This document shows, in pieces, positions 1,864 to 25,896 of a stretch of 47,021 bases of DNA (position 1 is its first letter; every line of letters starts with the position of its first letter). The translations under genes and the position numbers were made by a program. Below the pieces are notes generated by a model. It saw nothing but the letters and a program-made list of their open reading frames with translations, searched no databases and was not told the DNA's origin. The DNA is from Rathayibacter sp. SD072 (GTDB lineage Bacteria > Actinomycetota > Actinomycetes > Actinomycetales > Microbacteriaceae), in assembly GCF_017355185.1 (NCBI RefSeq), contig NZ_JADILJ010000027.1, positions 1 through 47,021 on the forward strand, written 5' to 3'.

Positions 1864-3312
1864 GTGACTCTGCGACTGCACGACTCGAAGGCCCAGGCCC
1901 TCGTCGATTTCGTCCCCCTCCGTGCGAACGAGGTCGGGATGTACGTCTGCGGACCCACCGTGCAGTCCTCCCCGCACATCGGTCACCTGCGCTCGGCGCT
2001 GGTCTACGACCAGCTGCGGCGCTGGCTCCGCTACCGCGGGTTCCACGTCACCCTCGTGCGCAACGTCACCGACATCGACGACAAGATCCTCGCGATCGCC
2101 GAGGAGTCGCGCCGCGCCGCCCCCGAGGAGGTGCCGTCCGAGCAGTGGTGGGCCCTGGCCTACCGCGTCGAGCTCGAGTTCACGGCGGCCTACAACGCCC
2201 TCGGCATCCTCCCTCCCACCTACGAACCGCGCGCCACGGCGAGCATCGCCGAGATGATCGGGCTCGTGCAGCGCCTCATCGAGCTCGGCCACGCGTACCC
2301 CGCGCCCGACGAGTCCGGCGACGTCTACTTCGACACCCGCTCGTGGCCCGACTACGGCGCCCTCACCCACCAGCGCCTCGAGAGCATGGAGGCCGCGACC
2401 GACGCGGACCCCCGCGGCAAGCGCGACCCGCACGACTTCGCCCTCTGGAAGGGCATGAAGCCCGACGAGCCCGAGTCGGCGTCCTGGGCCTCTCCGTGGG
2501 GCCGCGGCCGCCCGGGCTGGCACATCGAGTGCTCGGCGATGTCGACGAAGTACCTCGGCACGCAGTTCGACATCCACGGCGGCGGCCTCGATCTCCGCTT
2601 CCCGCACCACGAGAACGAGCTGGCCCAGTCCAGCGCGGCGGGGCACGCCTTCGCGTCCTACTGGCTGCACAACGGGCTCGTCTCGGTGACCGGGCAGAAG
2701 ATGAGCAAGTCGCTCGGCAACTCCGTGTTCGCCTCCGAGCTCCTCGGCGCCGCGCGACCGCTGGTCGTCCGCTACTACCTCGGCTCGGCGCACTACCGCT
2801 CGACGCTCGAGTTCCACGACGGTGCGCTCGACGAGGCCGAGGCCGCCCTCGAGCGGATCGAGGGCTTCCTCGACAGGTCGCGCCGACGCCTGGAGGGCAC
2901 CCGCTTCGCCACCCTCGGCGAGCCGCTCGTGCCCGAGGAGTTCGCCGAGGCGATGGACGACGACCTGTCGGTCCCGCAGGCGGTCGGCGTCCTGCACGAG
3001 ACCGTCCGGGCCGGCAACGCCGCCCTCGACGCCGAGGATCTGGGCACCGTCGCGGCGCTGCGCACGCAGGTCCTCGCCATGGCGTCGGTGCTCGGCATCG
3101 ACCCGGAGGCGCCCGAGTGGGCGCGCTCCGACGACGAGCCCTCCTACCGGGCTCTGAGCGTCCTCGTCGACCGTCTGGTCCTCGAGCGCCAGTCCGCGCG
3201 GGAGCAGCGCGACTGGGCGGCCGCCGACCGCATCCGAACCGATCTCGCTGCGGCGGGAATCACGATCGAAGACACCCAGACGGGTGCGCATTGGAGTCTC
3301 GATGGCGAATAA
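1864..3312 (+). CDS. cysS: Cysteine--tRNA ligase
   Basis: A 482-residue class I aminoacyl-tRNA synthetase that charges tRNA-Cys. The zinc-binding cysteine is in YVCGPTV (Cys29), the HIGH signature follows in SPHIGHL (38-41), and KMSKS lies at 279-283. The segment [10 protein letters not shown] and the downstream [15 protein letters not shown] are typical of CysS and carry the other zinc ligands. Length is normal for the family. The GTG start is supported by the -10 box six bases upstream. The last 11 bases overlap the start of rlmB in another frame, so the two are probably translationally coupled. An MshC-type mycothiol ligase was considered, but the length and C-terminal domain fit CysS. Confidence 0.95.
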
Positions 3313-4324
3313 GCCCGGCCGCCCAGGAGCGGTCCGAAAGAAGAGCAAGGGCAAGGCCGTCGGTTCCGGCGGTCAGGGCAGGCAGGCCCTCGAGGGCAAG
3401 AAGCCCACGCCGAAGGCGGAGGACCGTCCGTACCACCCCGCGGGCAAGGCGAAGGCGGCGCGCGAGCGCTTCGTCGCCGCCGGCGGCAAGGGGCGTCCCG
3501 GCAGCACGCTGTCGGCGGCCGCCAGAGGGGGAGCGGGCCGCCCCGCTCCGTCGCGCAGGCCCAAGAGCGTCGACGAGTCCGAGATGGTCACGGGCCGCAA
3601 CTCCGTCCTCGAGGCGCTGCGGGCGAAGATCCCCGCGACGACGCTCTACGTGGCGACCCGCATCGAGATGGACGACCGGGTCAAGGAGGCGCTCAAGCTC
3701 GCCACCGCGCGCGGCCTGCCCGTCCTCGAGGTCATGCGCCCCGAGCTCGACCGGCTCGCCGGCCCCGACTCGGTGCACCAGGGCCTCGTCCTCAAGGTGC
3801 CGCCCTACGAGTACGCCCACCCGAGCGATCTGCTGCAGCGCAGCATCTCCCGCGCGCAGGTCCCCCTGTTCGTCGCGCTCGACGGGATCACGGACCCCCG
3901 CAATCTCGGCGCGATCATCCGCTCGGTCGCCGCGTTCGGCGGTCAGGGCGTCATCGTGCCCCAGCGCCGCTCGGTGGGTCTGAACTCGGCCGCGTGGAAG
4001 ACCTCGGCCGGAGCCGCGGCCCGCGTGCCCGTCGCCATGGCGTCGAACCTGACCGCCATGATCAAGGACTTCAAGCGCGACGGCGTCTTCGTCATCGGGC
4101 TCGACGGCGGCGGCGACACCATGCTGCCGGGTCTCGAGCTGGCCGATCGGCCCCTGCTCGTGCTCGTCGGCAGCGAGGGCAAGGGGCTGTCCCGCCTCGT
4201 CACCGAGCAGTGCGACGCGATCGTCTCGATCCCGATCAGCTCGGCGGCGGAGTCGCTGAACGCGGGCATCGCCGCGTCCGTCGCGCTCTACGAGATCTCG
4301 AAGCTCCGCGCGTCACAGAAATAG
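3302..4324 (+). CDS. rlmB: 23S rRNA (guanosine-2'-O-)-methyltransferase RlmB-like
   Basis: A 340-residue SpoU/TrmH (SPOUT) 2'-O-methyltransferase. The three family motifs are visible: NLGAIIRSV near residue 201, GSEGKGLS near 290 and [14 protein letters not shown] near 318; together they build the knotted SAM site. The first 95 residues are rich in Lys, Arg, Gly and Ala, a basic extension common in actinobacterial members. A substrate-binding domain (ARNSVLEAL onward) follows. I chose the ATG at 3302, inside the cysS end, because GGAG lies seven bases upstream. The exact target nucleotide (G2251 in E. coli) is by family, not shown here. Confidence 0.9.
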
Positions 4325-4511
4325 CGAGGGGCCCGGCACGGCGATCTGCGGTGTCGTCGTCGGGCGCGATACCTCCGGTATCGCTTCCTCCTCCGCCTTG
4401 CAGCTCACCGCGAGGGGCCCGGCACGGCGATCTGCGGTGTTGTCGTCGGGCGCGATACCTCCGGTATCGCTTCCTCCTCCGCCTTGCAGCTCACCGCGCC
4501 GGGCCCCTCGC
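4324..4511. repeat. Tandem palindromic repeat: 50-bp conserved core with pairing arms, two units
   Basis: Two units with an 86-bp period (4324-4409 and 4410-4495, one C/T difference) are closed by a right arm ending at 4511. The complete unit 4410-4511 has a 26-nt left arm (4410-4435), a 50-nt core (4436-4485) and a 26-nt right arm (4486-4511). The arms are complementary at 23 of 26 positions; read on the minus strand, two of the three mismatches become G-U pairs. Each core holds a perfect 8-bp hairpin with a 3-nt loop (4366-4384 and 4452-4470). The core recurs in opposite orientation at 23256-23305 (48/50 identical), but with unrelated arms. It sits between convergent genes. Nature unknown. 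Confidence 0.85.
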
Positions 4512-4530
4512 GGGGCCGGGAAGAACGACG

Positions 4531-4562
4531 AAGGCCCGTGCGGAGCGATTCGCACGGGCCTT
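4531..4562 (-). terminator. Hairpin terminator of the DUF4032 gene
   Basis: AAGGCCCGTGCG and its exact complement CGCACGGGCCTT form a 12-bp stem with an 8-nt loop, 13 bases beyond the DUF4032 stop codon. No clear U-run follows, as is usual in this group. Confidence 0.75.
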
Positions 4563-4574
4563 CCTCGTGAGAGG

Positions 4575-5891
4575 TCAGACGTTCTTCGTCCAGTCGACCT
4601 CGGCGTCCTCGTCGGTCAGCTCGGCGTCGCCCGCCTCGTCGATCACGAGGTTGGGCAGCGTCAGGGCCTCGGTCGGCGGGGCGATGATCGTCGCCTCGTC
4701 GCGGCGGTGGCGCAGGATGTCGTTCACGTAGGCGGTGACCGCCTCGGCGAGCGGCACATCGCGGGCCTGCTGCTGCGACATGAACCAGCGGTGCTCGAGC
4801 AGCTGGTGGAACATCTCCGCCGGCTCCAGACGCCCCTTCAGATCGCGCGGGATCGAGCGGATCACCGGCTCGAAGACCTGAGCCAGCCATTCGTGGGCGA
4901 CCATCTCCTCGTCCAGACCCTGCTTGCCGTAGGTCGCGGTGTACGAGTCGAGGTCGTTCAGGAGCCGTCGCGCCTGGTTCTCCTGGGCGTCGAGCCCGGT
5001 CAGGCGGAGCAGGCGGCGCTGGTGGTGGCCGGCGTCGACGACCTTCGGCTGGATCCGCACCGTCGATCCGGCGTCGTCGGTCTTGATCGCCAGCTCCTCG
5101 ATGTCGAAGCCGAGGTCGTTCAGGCGGTTCACGCGGTCGTTGATGCGCCAGCGCTCGGAGGTGGCGAACGACTCGACGCCCGTCAGCTCCTTCCAGAGGC
5201 TGCGGTACGCCGCGACGATCCCGTCCGAGACGGTGATGGGGTCGAGGTCCTCGTCCACGCGGCCGCCGGCCTCGAGGTCGAGGAGCTCGCCGGCGATGTT
5301 CACGCGGGCGATCTCGAGGTCGTTCTCGCGCTGGCCGTTCGAGAGCCCGCCCGAGTAGAGCTGTCCCGTCTCGGCGTCGACCAGGTAGGCGGCGAACGCA
5401 CCGGCGTCACGGCGGAACAGCGTGTTCGAGAGCGACACGTCGCCCCAGAAGAAGCCGATCACGTGCAGGCGGACGAGCAGGAGGGCGAGGGCGTCGACGA
5501 GGCGGGTCGCCGTGTCCGGCCGCAGCGTCTGGGAGAAGAGCGCCCGGTAGGGGAGCGAGAACTTGAGGTGGCGCGTCACCAGCACGGCGGGCAGCTCACC
5601 GCCCTCGTCGTCGGTGCGGTTCGCGATGACGGCGCCGGGCACCACGCAGGGCACGTCGAGGCGCTGGAGGGTCTTCAGCATCTCGTACTCGCGACGAGCC
5701 ATCTCGGCGGTCGTCTCCTTCACGGCGACGACGTGCCCCGAGAGGTGGGCGAAGCGCACCGTGTGCCGCGAGATGCCCTTGGGCAGAGCGGCGATGTAGG
5801 CGTCGGGCCAGTCGTCGAGGCGCAGGTTCCACGGGAGGTCCAGGAGGGCGGGGTCGACGGTGGCGGAGGTGATGTTCAGGGATCCGGACAT
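4575..5891 (-). CDS. DUF4032 family protein with a kinase-like fold
   Basis: A 438-residue protein I recognise as DUF4032, an actinobacterial family related to lipopolysaccharide kinases. Visible kinase-like elements are VAVKE with Lys58 (beta-3 lysine), a downstream acidic helix, the catalytic-loop-like GDVSLSNTLF (Asp151, Asn156) and VDAETG (Asp172) in place of DFG. The C-terminal half (about 200-420) is helical and ends in a very acidic tail. No signal peptide or membrane segment is seen. The substrate is unknown, and activity is inferred only from the residues listed. It is followed by a strong terminator and then the 4.3-4.5 kb repeat. Confidence 0.82.
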   Translation of the reverse strand: MSGSLNITSATVDPALLDLPWNLRLDDWPDAYIAALPKGISRHTVRFAHLSGHVVAVKETTAEMARREYEMLKTLQRLDVPCVVPGAVIANRTDDEGGELPAVLVTRHLKFSLPYRALFSQTLRPDTATRLVDALALLLVRLHVIGFFWGDVSLSNTLFRRDAGAFAAYLVDAETGQLYSGGLSNGQRENDLEIARVNIAGELLDLEAGGRVDEDLDPITVSDGIVAAYRSLWKELTGVESFATSERWRINDRVNRLNDLGFDIEELAIKTDDAGSTVRIQPKVVDAGHHQRRLLRLTGLDAQENQARRLLNDLDSYTATYGKQGLDEEMVAHEWLAQVFEPVIRSIPRDLKGRLEPAEMFHQLLEHRWFMSQQQARDVPLAEAVTAYVNDILRHRRDEATIIAPPTEALTLPNLVIDEAGDAELTDEDAEVDWTKNV

Positions 5892-7069: not shown

Positions 7070-7173
7070 TGTTCTTGCTCCTTCACCGGCAGGTACGTGC
7101 CGGACGATCCGAGTGAATGGAATTGATGATGGTCATCGTCGTGTGGACGACGGCGGCCAACCGTCACAGTATG
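7070..7173 (-). promoter_or_regulatory. Promoter and structured leader of the MsiK-type ATPase gene
   Basis: A CATACT -10-like box lies at 7168-7173 on the minus strand, predicting a leader of about 90 nt. Just before the Shine-Dalgarno a 6-bp hairpin forms from CCGGCA and TGCCGG. An RNA motif named msiK is described upstream of such genes in actinobacteria. I cannot verify a match to its consensus here. Confidence 0.4.
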
Positions 7174-22635: not shown

Positions 22636-23133
22636 ATGCGCACCCTGGTTCTCAACGCCGGCTACGAGCCTCTCGCGGTCGTCTCGTTCAAGCGGGCGCT
22701 GGTCCTGCTGATGACCGAGAAGGCCACCGTCATCGAGGCCGACGAGGACAATCCGGTGCACGGTGCGGCCGGCGACTACGTCCGCCCGTCCGTGATCCTG
22801 CTCACGCGCTACGTGCGGATCCCGAGCTCGCGGACGGTGCCCGTGTCCCGCCGTGGCGTGCTGCGCCGGGACAACCACCGCTGCGGCTACTGCGGGACCC
22901 ACGCGAACACGATCGACCACATCCAGCCGAAGTCGCGCGGCGGGCGCGACACGTGGGAGAACCTCGTCGCCTGCTGCCACCGCTGCAACAACACCAAGAG
23001 CGACCGCACGCCGGCCGAGATGGGCTGGCACCTGCGGACGGTGCCCCGTGTGCCGCGGGCCGGATCCTGGCTCGTGCGCGGCGCGGAGCGCATGGAACCC
23101 GAGTGGAACGGCTACCTGGCTCCGGCAGCCTGA
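22636..23133 (+). CDS. HNH endonuclease family protein
   Basis: 165 residues. It begins MRTLVLNAGYEPLAVVSFKRA, the standard start of a widespread actinobacterial HNH family. The nuclease core spans about 75-130: zinc CxxC in CGYCG, TIDHIQPKSRGG (the catalytic His), NLVACCHRCNNTKSDRTP (Asn and the second CxxC). It should nick or cut DNA; its biological role is not established. GGAGG lies seven bases before the ATG. The gene stands downstream of a strong hairpin and upstream of the palindromic repeat. Confidence 0.9.
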   Translation: MRTLVLNAGYEPLAVVSFKRALVLLMTEKATVIEADEDNPVHGAAGDYVRPSVILLTRYVRIPSSRTVPVSRRGVLRRDNHRCGYCGTHANTIDHIQPKSRGGRDTWENLVACCHRCNNTKSDRTPAEMGWHLRTVPRVPRAGSWLVRGAERMEPEWNGYLAPAA

Positions 23134-23230
23134 GCCGCGAGATGCCACTTCGGTACGAGGTGACCGCAGAGTCGCCCACCGGAGTGACATCTCGCGGAAG
23201 CGTCGTCGGACCGGCCGACCGCTCTACCGG

Positions 23231-23330
23231 ACGCGGTGCGAGGGGCGGCTTCCGCAAGGCGGAGGAGGAAGCGATACCGGCGGTATCGCGCCCGACGACA
23301 ACGCCGCGGAAGGCGTCCCTCGCACCGCGT
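23231..23330. repeat. Third copy of the palindromic repeat: 50-bp core with locus-specific arms
   Basis: A 25-nt left arm (23231-23255) and 25-nt right arm (23306-23330) are complementary except for one G-T and one G-G. They enclose a 50-nt core (23256-23305) that is 48/50 identical to the reverse complement of the core at 4436-4485. The internal hairpin is GCGATACC / GGTATCGC with a 3-nt loop (23271-23289). The arms are unrelated to those at 4.4 kb. The right arm ends on the first base of the convergent phosphoketolase stop codon, so the element fills the end-to-end gap between two convergent genes, as at 4.4 kb. Confidence 0.85.
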
Positions 23331-25804
23331 CATTCGTTGTCGCCGCCCGTGGCGGTGCTGGCGTTGCCGGAGCGCTCGCCGGACCAGGTCCAGTTCGCGA
23401 CCTCGGGGAGGTCCTCGCCGAACTCGCGGGTGTAGGCGCGGGCGCGGAGGCGGGCGTCCTGCATCTCCTGGCGGAGGCCGGCGGCGCGGGAGCCGAGGCC
23501 GGGGGTGCGGTCGATGACGTCGATCACGAGCGAGTAGCGGTCGAGGTCGTTCAGCATCACCATGTCGAACGGAGTGGTGGTGGTGCCGTTCTCCTTGTAG
23601 CCGCGCACGTGCAGGTTCTGGTGGCCGGTCCGCTTGTAGGTCAGGCGGTGGATCAGCCACGGGTAGCCGTGGTACGCGAAGACGACGGGGCGGTCGGGAG
23701 TGAAGACCGCGTCGAACTCGCGGTCCGAGAGGCCGTGCGGGTGCTCGGACTCGGACATCAGGCGCATGAGGTCGACGACGTTGACGGTGCGGATCGCGAG
23801 GTCCGGCAGCTTCTCGCGCAGGATGCTCACCGCGGCGAGGGTCTCGAGGGTCGGGACGTCGCCCGCACAGGCGAGCACGACGTCCGGAGACTCGCCCTGA
23901 CGCTCGCTGCTGGCCCACTCGAGGATGCCCAGGCCGCGCGAGCAGTGCGCGACGGCCTCGTCCATCGTGAGCCACGCGGGGGCGGGCTGCTTGCCCGCGA
24001 CGACGACGTTGACGTAGTCGACGCTGCGGAGGCAGTGGTCGTAGACCGAGAGCAGCGTGTTGGCGTCGAAGGGCAGGTAGACGCGCACCACCTCCGGCTT
24101 CTTGTTGACGACGTGGTCGATGAAGCCCGGGTCCTGGTGGCTGAAGCCGTTGTGGTCCTGGCGCCAGACGTGGCTCGAGAGCAGGTAGTTCAGGCTCGCG
24201 ATGGGGCGGCGCCACTCGATCTCGCGCGTGCCGTTGAGCCACTTCGCGTGCTGGTTGAACATCGAGTCGATGATGTGGATGAAGGCCTCGTAGCAGGTGA
24301 AGAGTCCGTGCCGACCGGTGAGCAGGTACCCCTCGAGCCAGCCCTGGCACTGGTGCTCCGAGAGCACCTCCATGACCCGGCCCGCGCGGGCGAGGTGGTC
24401 GTCGAGCGGGCTGAGCTCGCCCTCCCACTGCTTGTCGGTGGCGGCGTAGACGCTCTGCAGGCGGTTGCTCGCGACCTCGTCGGGTCCGAAGATGCGGAAG
24501 TTGGTGGGGTTGGCGCGGATGACGTCGGCGAGCCACTCGCCGAGCACCTTCGTCGCCTCGGCGACCGTGCCGCCGGGGGACTCGACGACGACCTCGTAGC
24601 GGCGGAAGTCGGGCAGGTGGAGCGACTGGCGCAGGAGGCCGCCGTTCGCGTGCGGCGTGGCGCTCATCCGCAGCTCGCCCTCGGGAGCGAGCGAGCGCAC
24701 GCGCTCGGCGATGCCGCCGCTCTCGGTGAAGAGCTCCTCGGGGCGGTAGGAGCGGAGCCAGTCCTCGAGGAGGCGGGTGTGCTCCTCGGTGTCCCGCGCG
24801 TTGGCGAGCGGCACCTGGTGGGCGCGATACGTGCCCTCGACCTGGACTCCGTCGATCTCGGCGGGGCAGGTCCAGCCCTTCGGGGTCTTCAGGACGATCA
24901 TCGGCCAGGCCGGCCGCGTCAGGTCTCCGGTCGCGGCGCGCTCCTTGATGGCGGCGATGCGGTCCAGGACCGTGTCGAGGACCTCGGCGAAGCGCTCGTG
25001 CACGCGCATGGGGTCCTCGCCGTCGAAGCCGCCCTCGACGAGGAAGGGCTCGTGCCCGTAGCCGCGGAGCAGGCTCTCGAGCTCCTCGTACGGGATGCGG
25101 GCGAGGATCGTGGGGTTCGCGATCTTGTAGCCGTTGAGGTGCAGGATGGGCAGGACCACTCCGTCGGTCGCGGGGTTCACGAACTTGTTCGAGTGCCAGC
25201 TGGTGGCGAGCGGGCCGGTCTCGGCCTCGCCGTCGCCGACGACCGCGGCGACGAGCAGATCGGGGTTGTCGAAGGCGGCTCCGTAGGCGTGGCTGAGCGC
25301 GTAGCCGAGCTCGCCGCCCTCGTGGATGCTGCCGGGGGTCTCGGGAGCGGCGTGGCTGGGGATGCCGCCGGGGAAGCTGAACTGGCGGAAGAGGCGGCGC
25401 AGGCCGTCCTCGGTCTCGTCGATGTGCGAGTAGATCTCGCTGTAGGTGCCGTCGAGGTAGGCGTTGGCGACCATGCCCGGGCCGCCGTGGCCGGGTCCGG
25501 TGATGTAGAGGGTGGACTGCCGGCGCTCGCGGATCGCGCGGTTGAGGTGCGCGTAGATGAGGTTCAGCCCCGGAGTGGTGCCCCAGTGGCCGAGGAGGCG
25601 CGGCTTGATGTGGTCGCGGGTGAGCGGCCCGGCGAGCAGCGGGTTCGCGAGCAGGTAGATCTGACCGACGGCGAGGTAGTTGGCGGCGCGCCACCAGGCG
25701 TCGACGGTCTCGAGGGTCTCCTGCGTCAGCGGGGCGTCCGCGTCGCGGGCGGCCCAGGTGTGCTCGGAGGCGGAGGGGAGCGCGGTGATCGTGGATGCGG
25801 CCAT
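23330..25804 (-). CDS. xfp: Xylulose-5-phosphate/fructose-6-phosphate phosphoketolase
   Basis: 824 residues, the normal size. Family stretches include [34 protein letters not shown], the thiamine-diphosphate site [19 protein letters not shown], and [19 protein letters not shown] in the C-terminal half. The enzyme cleaves xylulose-5-P or fructose-6-P with phosphate to acetyl-phosphate plus glyceraldehyde-3-P or erythrose-4-P. No acetate kinase gene is adjacent. The ATG at 25804 starts the first conserved segment; no strong Shine-Dalgarno is seen. Substrate preference cannot be read from the sequence. Confidence 0.95.
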
Positions 25805-25896
25805 GACGCCACGCTCGCATCCGACCGCCCCGGGCGGTAGGGCCTTGCGGCGCTCGCGCTCGGGACGGTCGGATGCGGGGTGCTGCTCCGGTGCTC

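Follow-up and report, generated by a model that had tools for sequence, protein, structure and literature searches.

How does a bacterial genome come to carry a nearly identical 50-bp core at two loci, in opposite orientation and each time enclosed by arms that pair with each other and are specific to their locus? The question is raised by contig NZ_JADILJ010000027.1 of Rathayibacter sp. SD072, a plant-associated bacterium, whose positions 1 to 47,021 were analyzed as a whole and are called the window in what follows. Palindromic repeats in bacteria have mostly been described as REPs with fixed stems, as terminators, or as remnants of MITEs. In contrast, the stems of the repeats considered here covary at the same genes, their fold forms on the strand opposite to the gene, and in one genus they are bound to stop codons.

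These repeats belong to an unnamed family of dispersed, structured elements, which we file with the dispersed palindromic and MITE elements as an unusual form that is strand-specific and anchored at gene ends. It is firm that the strand-specific fold is selected, that the family is related to MITEs, and that in Rathayibacter the stop codon is where the element is anchored, its fold strand being antisense to the gene. Going by its sequence, the element is a MITE-related structure fixed at the 3' ends of genes that probably works as an RNA hairpin of antisense transcripts. The first interpretation, made from the letters of the window and referred to here as the sequence-only reading, is partly supported.

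Copies in the Window and Its Genome

The window holds three copies, two of them in tandem. Complete copy 1 (4410..4511, minus strand; an arm of 26, an inner part of 50, and an arm of 26) is defined by its pairing and by a score of 108.9 bits with the covariance model R1, which was built from 12 copies of the window's genome, and has its 50-bp core at 4436..4485 (minus). Next to it, with a period of 86 bp, lies a tandem copy without its own outer right arm (4324..4409, minus; R1 match 4324-4425, 83.7 bits), the core of which (4350..4399, minus) is 98% identical to that of copy 1. Complete copy 2 (23230..23331, plus), likewise defined by pairing and by R1 (104.4 bits), has its core at 23256..23305 (plus). 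The sequence-only reading had counted 48 identical positions out of 50 between the oppositely oriented cores at 4436-4485 and 23256-23305, and this count was reproduced; the tandem copy at 4324-4409, the strand-specific fold, and the stop-codon anchor with its antisense orientation are absent from that account. The core pattern in the window is beyond chance: with up to three mismatches it finds three matches there, versus none in 100 dinucleotide shuffles.

On the fold strand of copy 1 (minus, 4410-4511) the 26-bp arms form 23 Watson-Crick and two G-U pairs with one mismatch, and on that of copy 2 (plus, 23230-23331) 24 Watson-Crick pairs and one G-U pair, again with one mismatch; these pair counts bear out the earlier remark that three of the five arm mismatches are G-U. 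Folded as RNA in the core orientation used by the sequence-only reading, the complete copies 1 and 2 have z = -7.4 and -6.1, the fold strand of copy 2, which is the strand opposite to that orientation, has z = -9.1, and the tandem copy folded alone has z = -1.9.

At the first of the two loci, locus A, the upstream gene is a called gene for a SpoU rRNA methylase (rlmB-like; 3302..4324, plus; PF00588, E 9.5e-35), whose TAG stop codon at 4322-4324 is abutted and overlapped by the tandem copy, and to which the fold strand of copy 1 (minus) is antisense; the convergent gene encodes a DUF4032 protein (4575..5891, minus; PF13224, E 1.7e-73). At locus B the upstream gene is that of a phosphoketolase (23330..25840 with an approximate start, minus; PF09364, PF03894, PF09363). 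The fold strand of copy 2 (plus) is antisense to it, and its TGA stop codon (23332-23330, minus) lies partly within the arm; the convergent gene encodes an HNH endonuclease-domain protein (22636..23133, plus; PF14279, E 4e-13).

Copies are many rather than confined to these two loci: the window's genome (3.88 Mb) has at least 14 clear ones when searched with a 100-base query, and R1 finds 23 matches in it at E ≤ 0.01, some of them weak and one an opposite-strand echo. In one stretch of this genome (G000:C23:75800-76207) four R1 matches, weak to good, are arrayed in one direction.

Anatomy and Covariation

The sequence-only reading described a conserved apex on a variable stem. The apical hairpin proved to vary too, and the nearly invariant part is an asymmetric internal loop, with GCAAGGCGGAGGAGG on one side and CGACGACAACGC on the other, which lies between the apical hairpin and variable arms of 24-28 bp. 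The hairpin differs among copies and is mostly still paired, and the arms pair in nearly all copies, as the element proposed by that reading would have them do.

The arms and the apical hairpin covary. Among the 12 copies of the window's genome, 97.2% of the cells are paired versus 74.7% in shuffles, and double changes occur in 26 of 39 pairs versus 16.2. In 111 distinct rows fitted to the model the paired share is 96.6% versus 74.3%, a comparison in which the fitted alignment leans to its own structure, and in 28 copies from many genera, aligned with MAFFT, it is 89.2% versus 68.1%. In this last set (A4), 22 pairs have a double change versus 19.4, a level reached by 13 of 500 shuffles, and the other measures were reached by none; core identity within it is due to selection of the copies, because these were mostly found via the exact core pattern, of which the arms are no part.

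Covariation can also be followed among copies that share a gene. We formed 17 sets of at least two copies each (69 distinct sequences, only 102-nt copies at most 30 nt from the stop codon), in which the same gene is inferred, because copies were grouped by how alike the C-terminal 16 residues of their upstream proteins are. Double changes kept the pair 526 times and broke it 43 times, counted over pairwise comparisons that are not independent, and in a control with the partners slid by 1-3 the numbers were 23.5 and 173. All p-values on such data overstate the case, because the copies are related.

Regarding the loop, R1 and the broader model R2 differ in the register of single G-C pairs, between which covariation cannot choose because these G and C are near-invariant. 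The loop could form tandem G-A steps; a kink-turn was considered and rejected, as the bulge and the GA steps come in the wrong order.

The Strand That Folds

The fold is maintained on one strand. When both strands were folded, the strand with GCAAGG gave the more stable fold in 14 of 14 copies of the window's genome, and in these copies its arms pair via G-U at positions that are A-C on the opposite strand. Counted over every pair in 103 distinct Rathayibacter rows, there are 247 G-U versus 39 A-C (181 versus 39 once the one mostly U-G pair is excluded), and 113 copies from other records, four of them from Rathayibacter, give 405 versus 35. The best control is restricted to departures that arose inside the same-gene sets; in the arms these are 50 G-U, 5 A-C, and 15 other mismatches, with p 2e-10 for 50:5 if independent, which related copies are not; those in the apical hairpin (4, 3, and 4, respectively) are without bias. 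The polarity is tied to the core regardless of the direction of the neighboring gene, with 97:8, 122:8, 90:5, and 38:8 in the four main arrangements of the other records, where MITE copies share much of the signal by descent. Selection thus acts on one strand, as RNA or as single-stranded DNA, regardless of the direction of the host gene.

A parasite without function, whose arms are kept alike by quasi-palindrome correction, i.e., template switching, would account for long and near-perfect arms, for tandem variation at the same site, and for the core-less deletion forms found in Gordonia. However, correction alone produces neither a 10:1 excess of G-U over A-C, nor a conserved loop, nor the 88:0 gene orientation reported in the next section, and we consider this origin very unlikely.

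Anchoring at Stop Codons

Of 114 R1 matches in Rathayibacter, 98 entered the counts of gene context; here, as in the other counts that involve gene direction, a simple codon-based caller assigned the starts and strands of genes. The 16 excluded matches are four opposite-strand echoes, one duplicate, and 11 tandem or low-scoring copies. With the non-fold strand read forward, the upstream gene runs in the same direction at 94 of the 98 copies, and at 82 of the 98 the stop codon falls within -13 (inside the arm) to +8 nt of the element start. Among the 12 same-direction copies that are farther off, 10 are separated from the stop codon by 42-204 nt and follow a further copy, full or partial. On the other side, 48 of the 94 copies have a co-directional next gene, 44 a convergent one, and two an uncalled one. 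The convergent neighbors named by the sequence-only reading are found at both window loci but are not a general rule.

Among copies without terminal inverted repeats (TIRs), the stop codon inside the arm belongs to the sense gene in 88 cases (81 in Rathayibacter and seven elsewhere) and to the opposite strand in none, the fold strand thus being antisense in 88 of 88; in 46 further TIR-less copies no stop codon was called in the arm. Moreover, the same upstream C-termini recur in different Rathayibacter species. The carrier genes in the window's genome are housekeeping genes: according to Pfam, they encode the SpoU/rlmB-like protein, phosphoketolase, a glutaredoxin (nrdH-like), ribose-phosphate pyrophosphokinase, and a DUF3151 protein, and by eye also GMP synthase, an OmpR-type regulator, ABC permeases, a sugar-binding protein, and a DUF853-like protein. 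No function common to these carriers was seen with Pfam or by eye. Six DUF3151 genes end in GAC TGA, GCT GAT TAG, or GCG GAT TAG, and the distal arm carries the complement, except for one mismatch in one of the six copies, which is A-C on the fold strand and goes against the polarity. These endings show that the predicted pairing extends into the coding region, with compensatory changes that reach the last codons.

A place right behind stop codons and strong hairpins are what an ordinary intrinsic terminator would have, and the sequence-only reading had thought of a structured RNA or terminator-like element with a covarying stem. The stem does covary; yet a run of four T within 10 nt after the hairpin is absent on either strand in all 98 copies, a separate T-flanked hairpin follows at locus A (approximately 4527-4567, by eye), and termination does not require a long asymmetric loop that is conserved, which together make a terminator hardly tenable.

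The same place suits an element of the sense mRNA, i.e., a REP-like hairpin of the 3'-UTR or between cistrons, which would either guard the upstream cistron against decay from the 3' end or be a cleavage site that parts one cistron from the next. Its position behind the stop codon on the mRNA sense strand is exact, and some copies lie between operon-like genes (nrdH-nrdI, and sugar-binding protein-ABC ATPase; names partly by eye), where a role in the sense mRNA would be natural and which count against an antisense role. In addition, the sense strand folds strongly too, with -50 to -77 kcal/mol for the copies of the window's genome. Such a role explains the place and the operon-like cases but not the strand, as the wobble polarity favors the other one (50:5 within sets and 247:39 over the 103 rows), and we regard it as rather unlikely.

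The Same Sites in Related Genomes

Locus A can be compared across 15 genomes of the genus, of which eight have one to three copies, one of these degenerate, and seven have none. The seven empty sites have no arms after the stop codon and in some cases carry other, unrelated palindromes (by eye), so the refuting outcome named in the sequence-only reading, that empty sites keep both arms as a pre-existing terminator, did not materialize; on the same grounds we reject the idea that the core was inserted into a terminator loop already in place. Locus B was readable in 12 of the 15 genomes: the element stands after the phosphoketolase gene in two, is inverted and placed after the opposing HNH-protein gene in three, is represented by truncated or arm-only remnants in two, and is absent from five. 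From the two loci together it follows that the arms are present or absent along with the element, and that the element follows the gene whose stop codon it abuts.

Other repeats occupy these places as well. The intergenic place of locus A contains CTGATCGAGTAGGCCGC...GATCTCGATACGC repeats and AGGGGGTTGTCAC palindromes in L055, L082, L085, L087, L090, and L091. At locus B, a second and unrelated palindrome (CGCGAGATG...CATCTCGCG) lies at about 23142-23205 of the window, and palindromes like it occur in five relatives that lack the element there (G002, G005, G006, G008, and G014).

Distribution and the MITE Form

At E ≤ 1e-5, R1 matches 15 of 15 Rathayibacter genomes, one of 33 others of the family, and one of 31 others of the order, and R2 with strict filters matches 19 of 296 genomes of the phylum, the window's own included; the distribution across Actinomycetota is patchy. 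A scan with the exact pattern found at least 117 stretches, 80 of which were listed by name. Among these listed matches most are from Streptomyces, and the others come from Kitasatospora, Gordonia, Nocardioides, Pseudonocardia, Frankia, Leucobacter, Microtetraspora, Rathayibacter, one Propionibacteriaceae bin, and three Lachnospiraceae/Clostridiales assemblies. These three assemblies look like bins, and misbinning is possible, yet the arms of one match (L158) are A+T-rich. Phage records gave no match to the element, nine plasmid records, all from Streptomyces, gave one, and a single contig of a viral collection (L256) has the exact pattern, in an A+T-rich version with long matching arms.

Most copies in other actinobacteria lie inside MITE-like elements with TIRs and CTAG/YTAR ends. 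TIRs with a score of at least 14 were found at 99 of 129 copies outside Rathayibacter and, beyond the arms, at two of 106 Rathayibacter copies; for scrambled pairs the 95th percentile of the score is 11 and the 99th is 18. CTAG/YTAR is present at both ends of many copies of this long form, and its TIR sequence varies by genus with core and fold kept. In Streptomyces the CTAG/YTAR end, 50 nt from the core, often includes the TAG or TAA of a stop codon. Rathayibacter, in turn, has the TIR-less form, which lies at a stop codon, has its fold strand antisense to the gene, and is kept at the same genes throughout the genus.

Copy number rises to 65 in one Frankia (Frankia sp. CIT1, L442-L471), which also has at least 197 matches to the TIR pattern; some of its copies (L452, L469, and L470) have a further insert on the loop side. 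In Gordonia, seven elements of 59-83 bp (L412, L413, L418, L422, L423, L430, and L438) have the same TIRs and no core. They were considered as precursors and rejected as such, since by eye they look like deletions between arm repeats instead. An apparent 3-kb composite in Leucobacter (L409) was likewise set aside, because this stretch is mirrored about its middle and is probably an assembly artifact. When an autonomous partner was sought in one Gordonia and one Frankia with the TIR pattern, the matches listed were all short pairs.

The small mobile palindrome that the sequence-only reading offered as its alternative thus captures the relationship of the family. The REP-associated transposase that it suggested looking for was sought as Y1/RAYT (PF01797, E ≤ 0.001) and found in none of the 15 genomes of the genus and in one of 40 searched, an order relative; mobilization by a RAYT/IS200 enzyme of the same genome is therefore rejected for Rathayibacter.

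Replication Forks and a Possible Role as DNA

In four Rathayibacter genomes the non-fold strand is co-directional with the replication fork at 33 of 36 loci, versus 57 of 95 other nearby genes (Fisher p 3e-4, for loci that are not independent), and the three lagging-strand genes are cases in which the element follows the gene and not the fork. With dnaA taken as the origin, the rule holds for 11 of 13 copies in one other closed genome, where all 10 copies that were read have TIRs, and for only six of 15 copies, i.e., without bias, in one Streptomyces. The loci used were L257-L293, together with genomes G374 and G089.

This bias hints at effects at the level of DNA. The fold strand might be recognized as a single-stranded or cruciform DNA hairpin by a protein of mobility or replication, and the short form would then either be a relic that no longer moves or still move slowly, with stop codons as its target. 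The MITE form with its TIRs and YTAR/CTAG ends, the patchy distribution over 19 of 296 genomes, the presence or absence of the element with zero to three tandem copies at the same site, and the fork co-orientation in Rathayibacter and in the other closed genome all agree with this. However, the fold strand is the leading-strand template and not the lagging template, which is the one usually single-stranded; the Streptomyces genome is without fork bias, at the three lagging-strand genes the element keeps to the gene, and no Y1 transposase was found in the 15 genomes of the genus. Mobility and the fork bias are accounted for by a role as DNA, whereas the compensatory upkeep at the same housekeeping genes is not, and we hold such a role to be unlikely.

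A Proposed Hairpin in Antisense Transcripts

An RNA hairpin of antisense transcripts would explain strand, orientation, and place together. The short form would have descended from the MITE form by loss of the termini and would have been kept because it works. The hairpin would form in transcripts that enter the gene from its 3' side, whether they come from a convergent neighbor or from a spurious or divergent promoter, and it may serve as a point of cutting or arrest, through RNase III-like cleavage, through Rho, or through a loop-binding protein, in such a way that the antisense RNA ends at the stop codon and the coding region is shielded. Besides the operon-like cases and the fork bias, two considerations temper this reading: where the next gene is co-directional (48 of the 94 copies) an RNA of the fold strand would need an antisense promoter, and the polarity, which in the MITE form is present at any orientation and is there partly shared ancestry, may stem from the family's existence as mobile elements. 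Taken in full, as a TIR-less MITE descendant kept as an antisense RNA hairpin at gene ends, the explanation is the one we favor, with confidence somewhat short of even.

A wider version of it, which we put forward more tentatively, is that a mobile structured element may have been domesticated into an RNA hairpin that lies antisense to housekeeping genes and marks gene boundaries, a signal of a new class. The stop codon and last codons of the gene itself would then make up the outer arm, antisense transcripts would be stopped or cut exactly at the boundary of the coding region, and the antisense fold would constrain synonymous codon choice at gene ends. The element opens questions about selection on antisense RNA structure at gene ends, about how a MITE turns into a fixed gene-end element, and about non-coding folds that constrain synonymous codons.

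Comparison with Known Systems

In the attC sites of integrons the fold strand is complementary to the coding strand, the site lies at the stop codon of the gene, and the stem is variable. The present element is alike in all three respects; it differs in that its outer ends vary and its center is conserved, whereas the attC consensus has conserved outer core sites and a variable inside, and no cassette arrays were seen. MITEs of the IS630/Tc1-mariner type have a CTAG/TA target, which the CTAG/YTAR ends of the long form resemble; unlike for those MITEs, neither an autonomous partner nor a transposase was found here.

REPs are dispersed extragenic palindromes, mostly behind coding regions and sometimes clustered. 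They measure 20-40 bp, their stems are constant within a family, and they carry an end tag, as in the GTAG and CGTC super-families, the latter apparently without a dedicated transposase; neither Actinobacteria nor Streptomyces is mentioned in that text on REPs and BIMEs (PMC3733652). Our element is similar in being dispersed, palindromic, mostly 3' of coding regions, and in some cases clustered, and dissimilar in its length of about 102 bp, its locus-specific and covarying stems, its conserved internal loop, and the stop codon in one arm. A constant stem of 20-40 bp with a GTAG or CGTC end tag is not what its copies have; CGTC occurs inside the core, on one strand (by eye). MITEs with RNA-like folds are known from bacteria as ERIC, RUP, and Correia (PMC2229807). 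The long form resembles them in its TIRs, short target-like ends, strong fold, and many copies, and differs in that the TIR sequence changes between genera with core and fold kept; the Rathayibacter form differs further in having no TIR and in being fixed at the same genes.

The marks of a structured RNA, covarying pairs and a wobble bias on one strand, are both present. Rfam gave no match on the element of the window at the gathering threshold, the best match below it being sodF_sRNA with 26 bits versus the 46 required (E 0.033), and nothing up to E 1 for two further loci (L204 and L158); a literature search, in which few subscription journals were covered, found no description of the element. 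With R1 and R2, covariance models are now at hand for a family absent from Rfam 15. Elsewhere in the window, Rfam identified an msiK RNA, a cis-regulatory motif, at 7072-7128 on the minus strand (RF01747, 57.6 bits).
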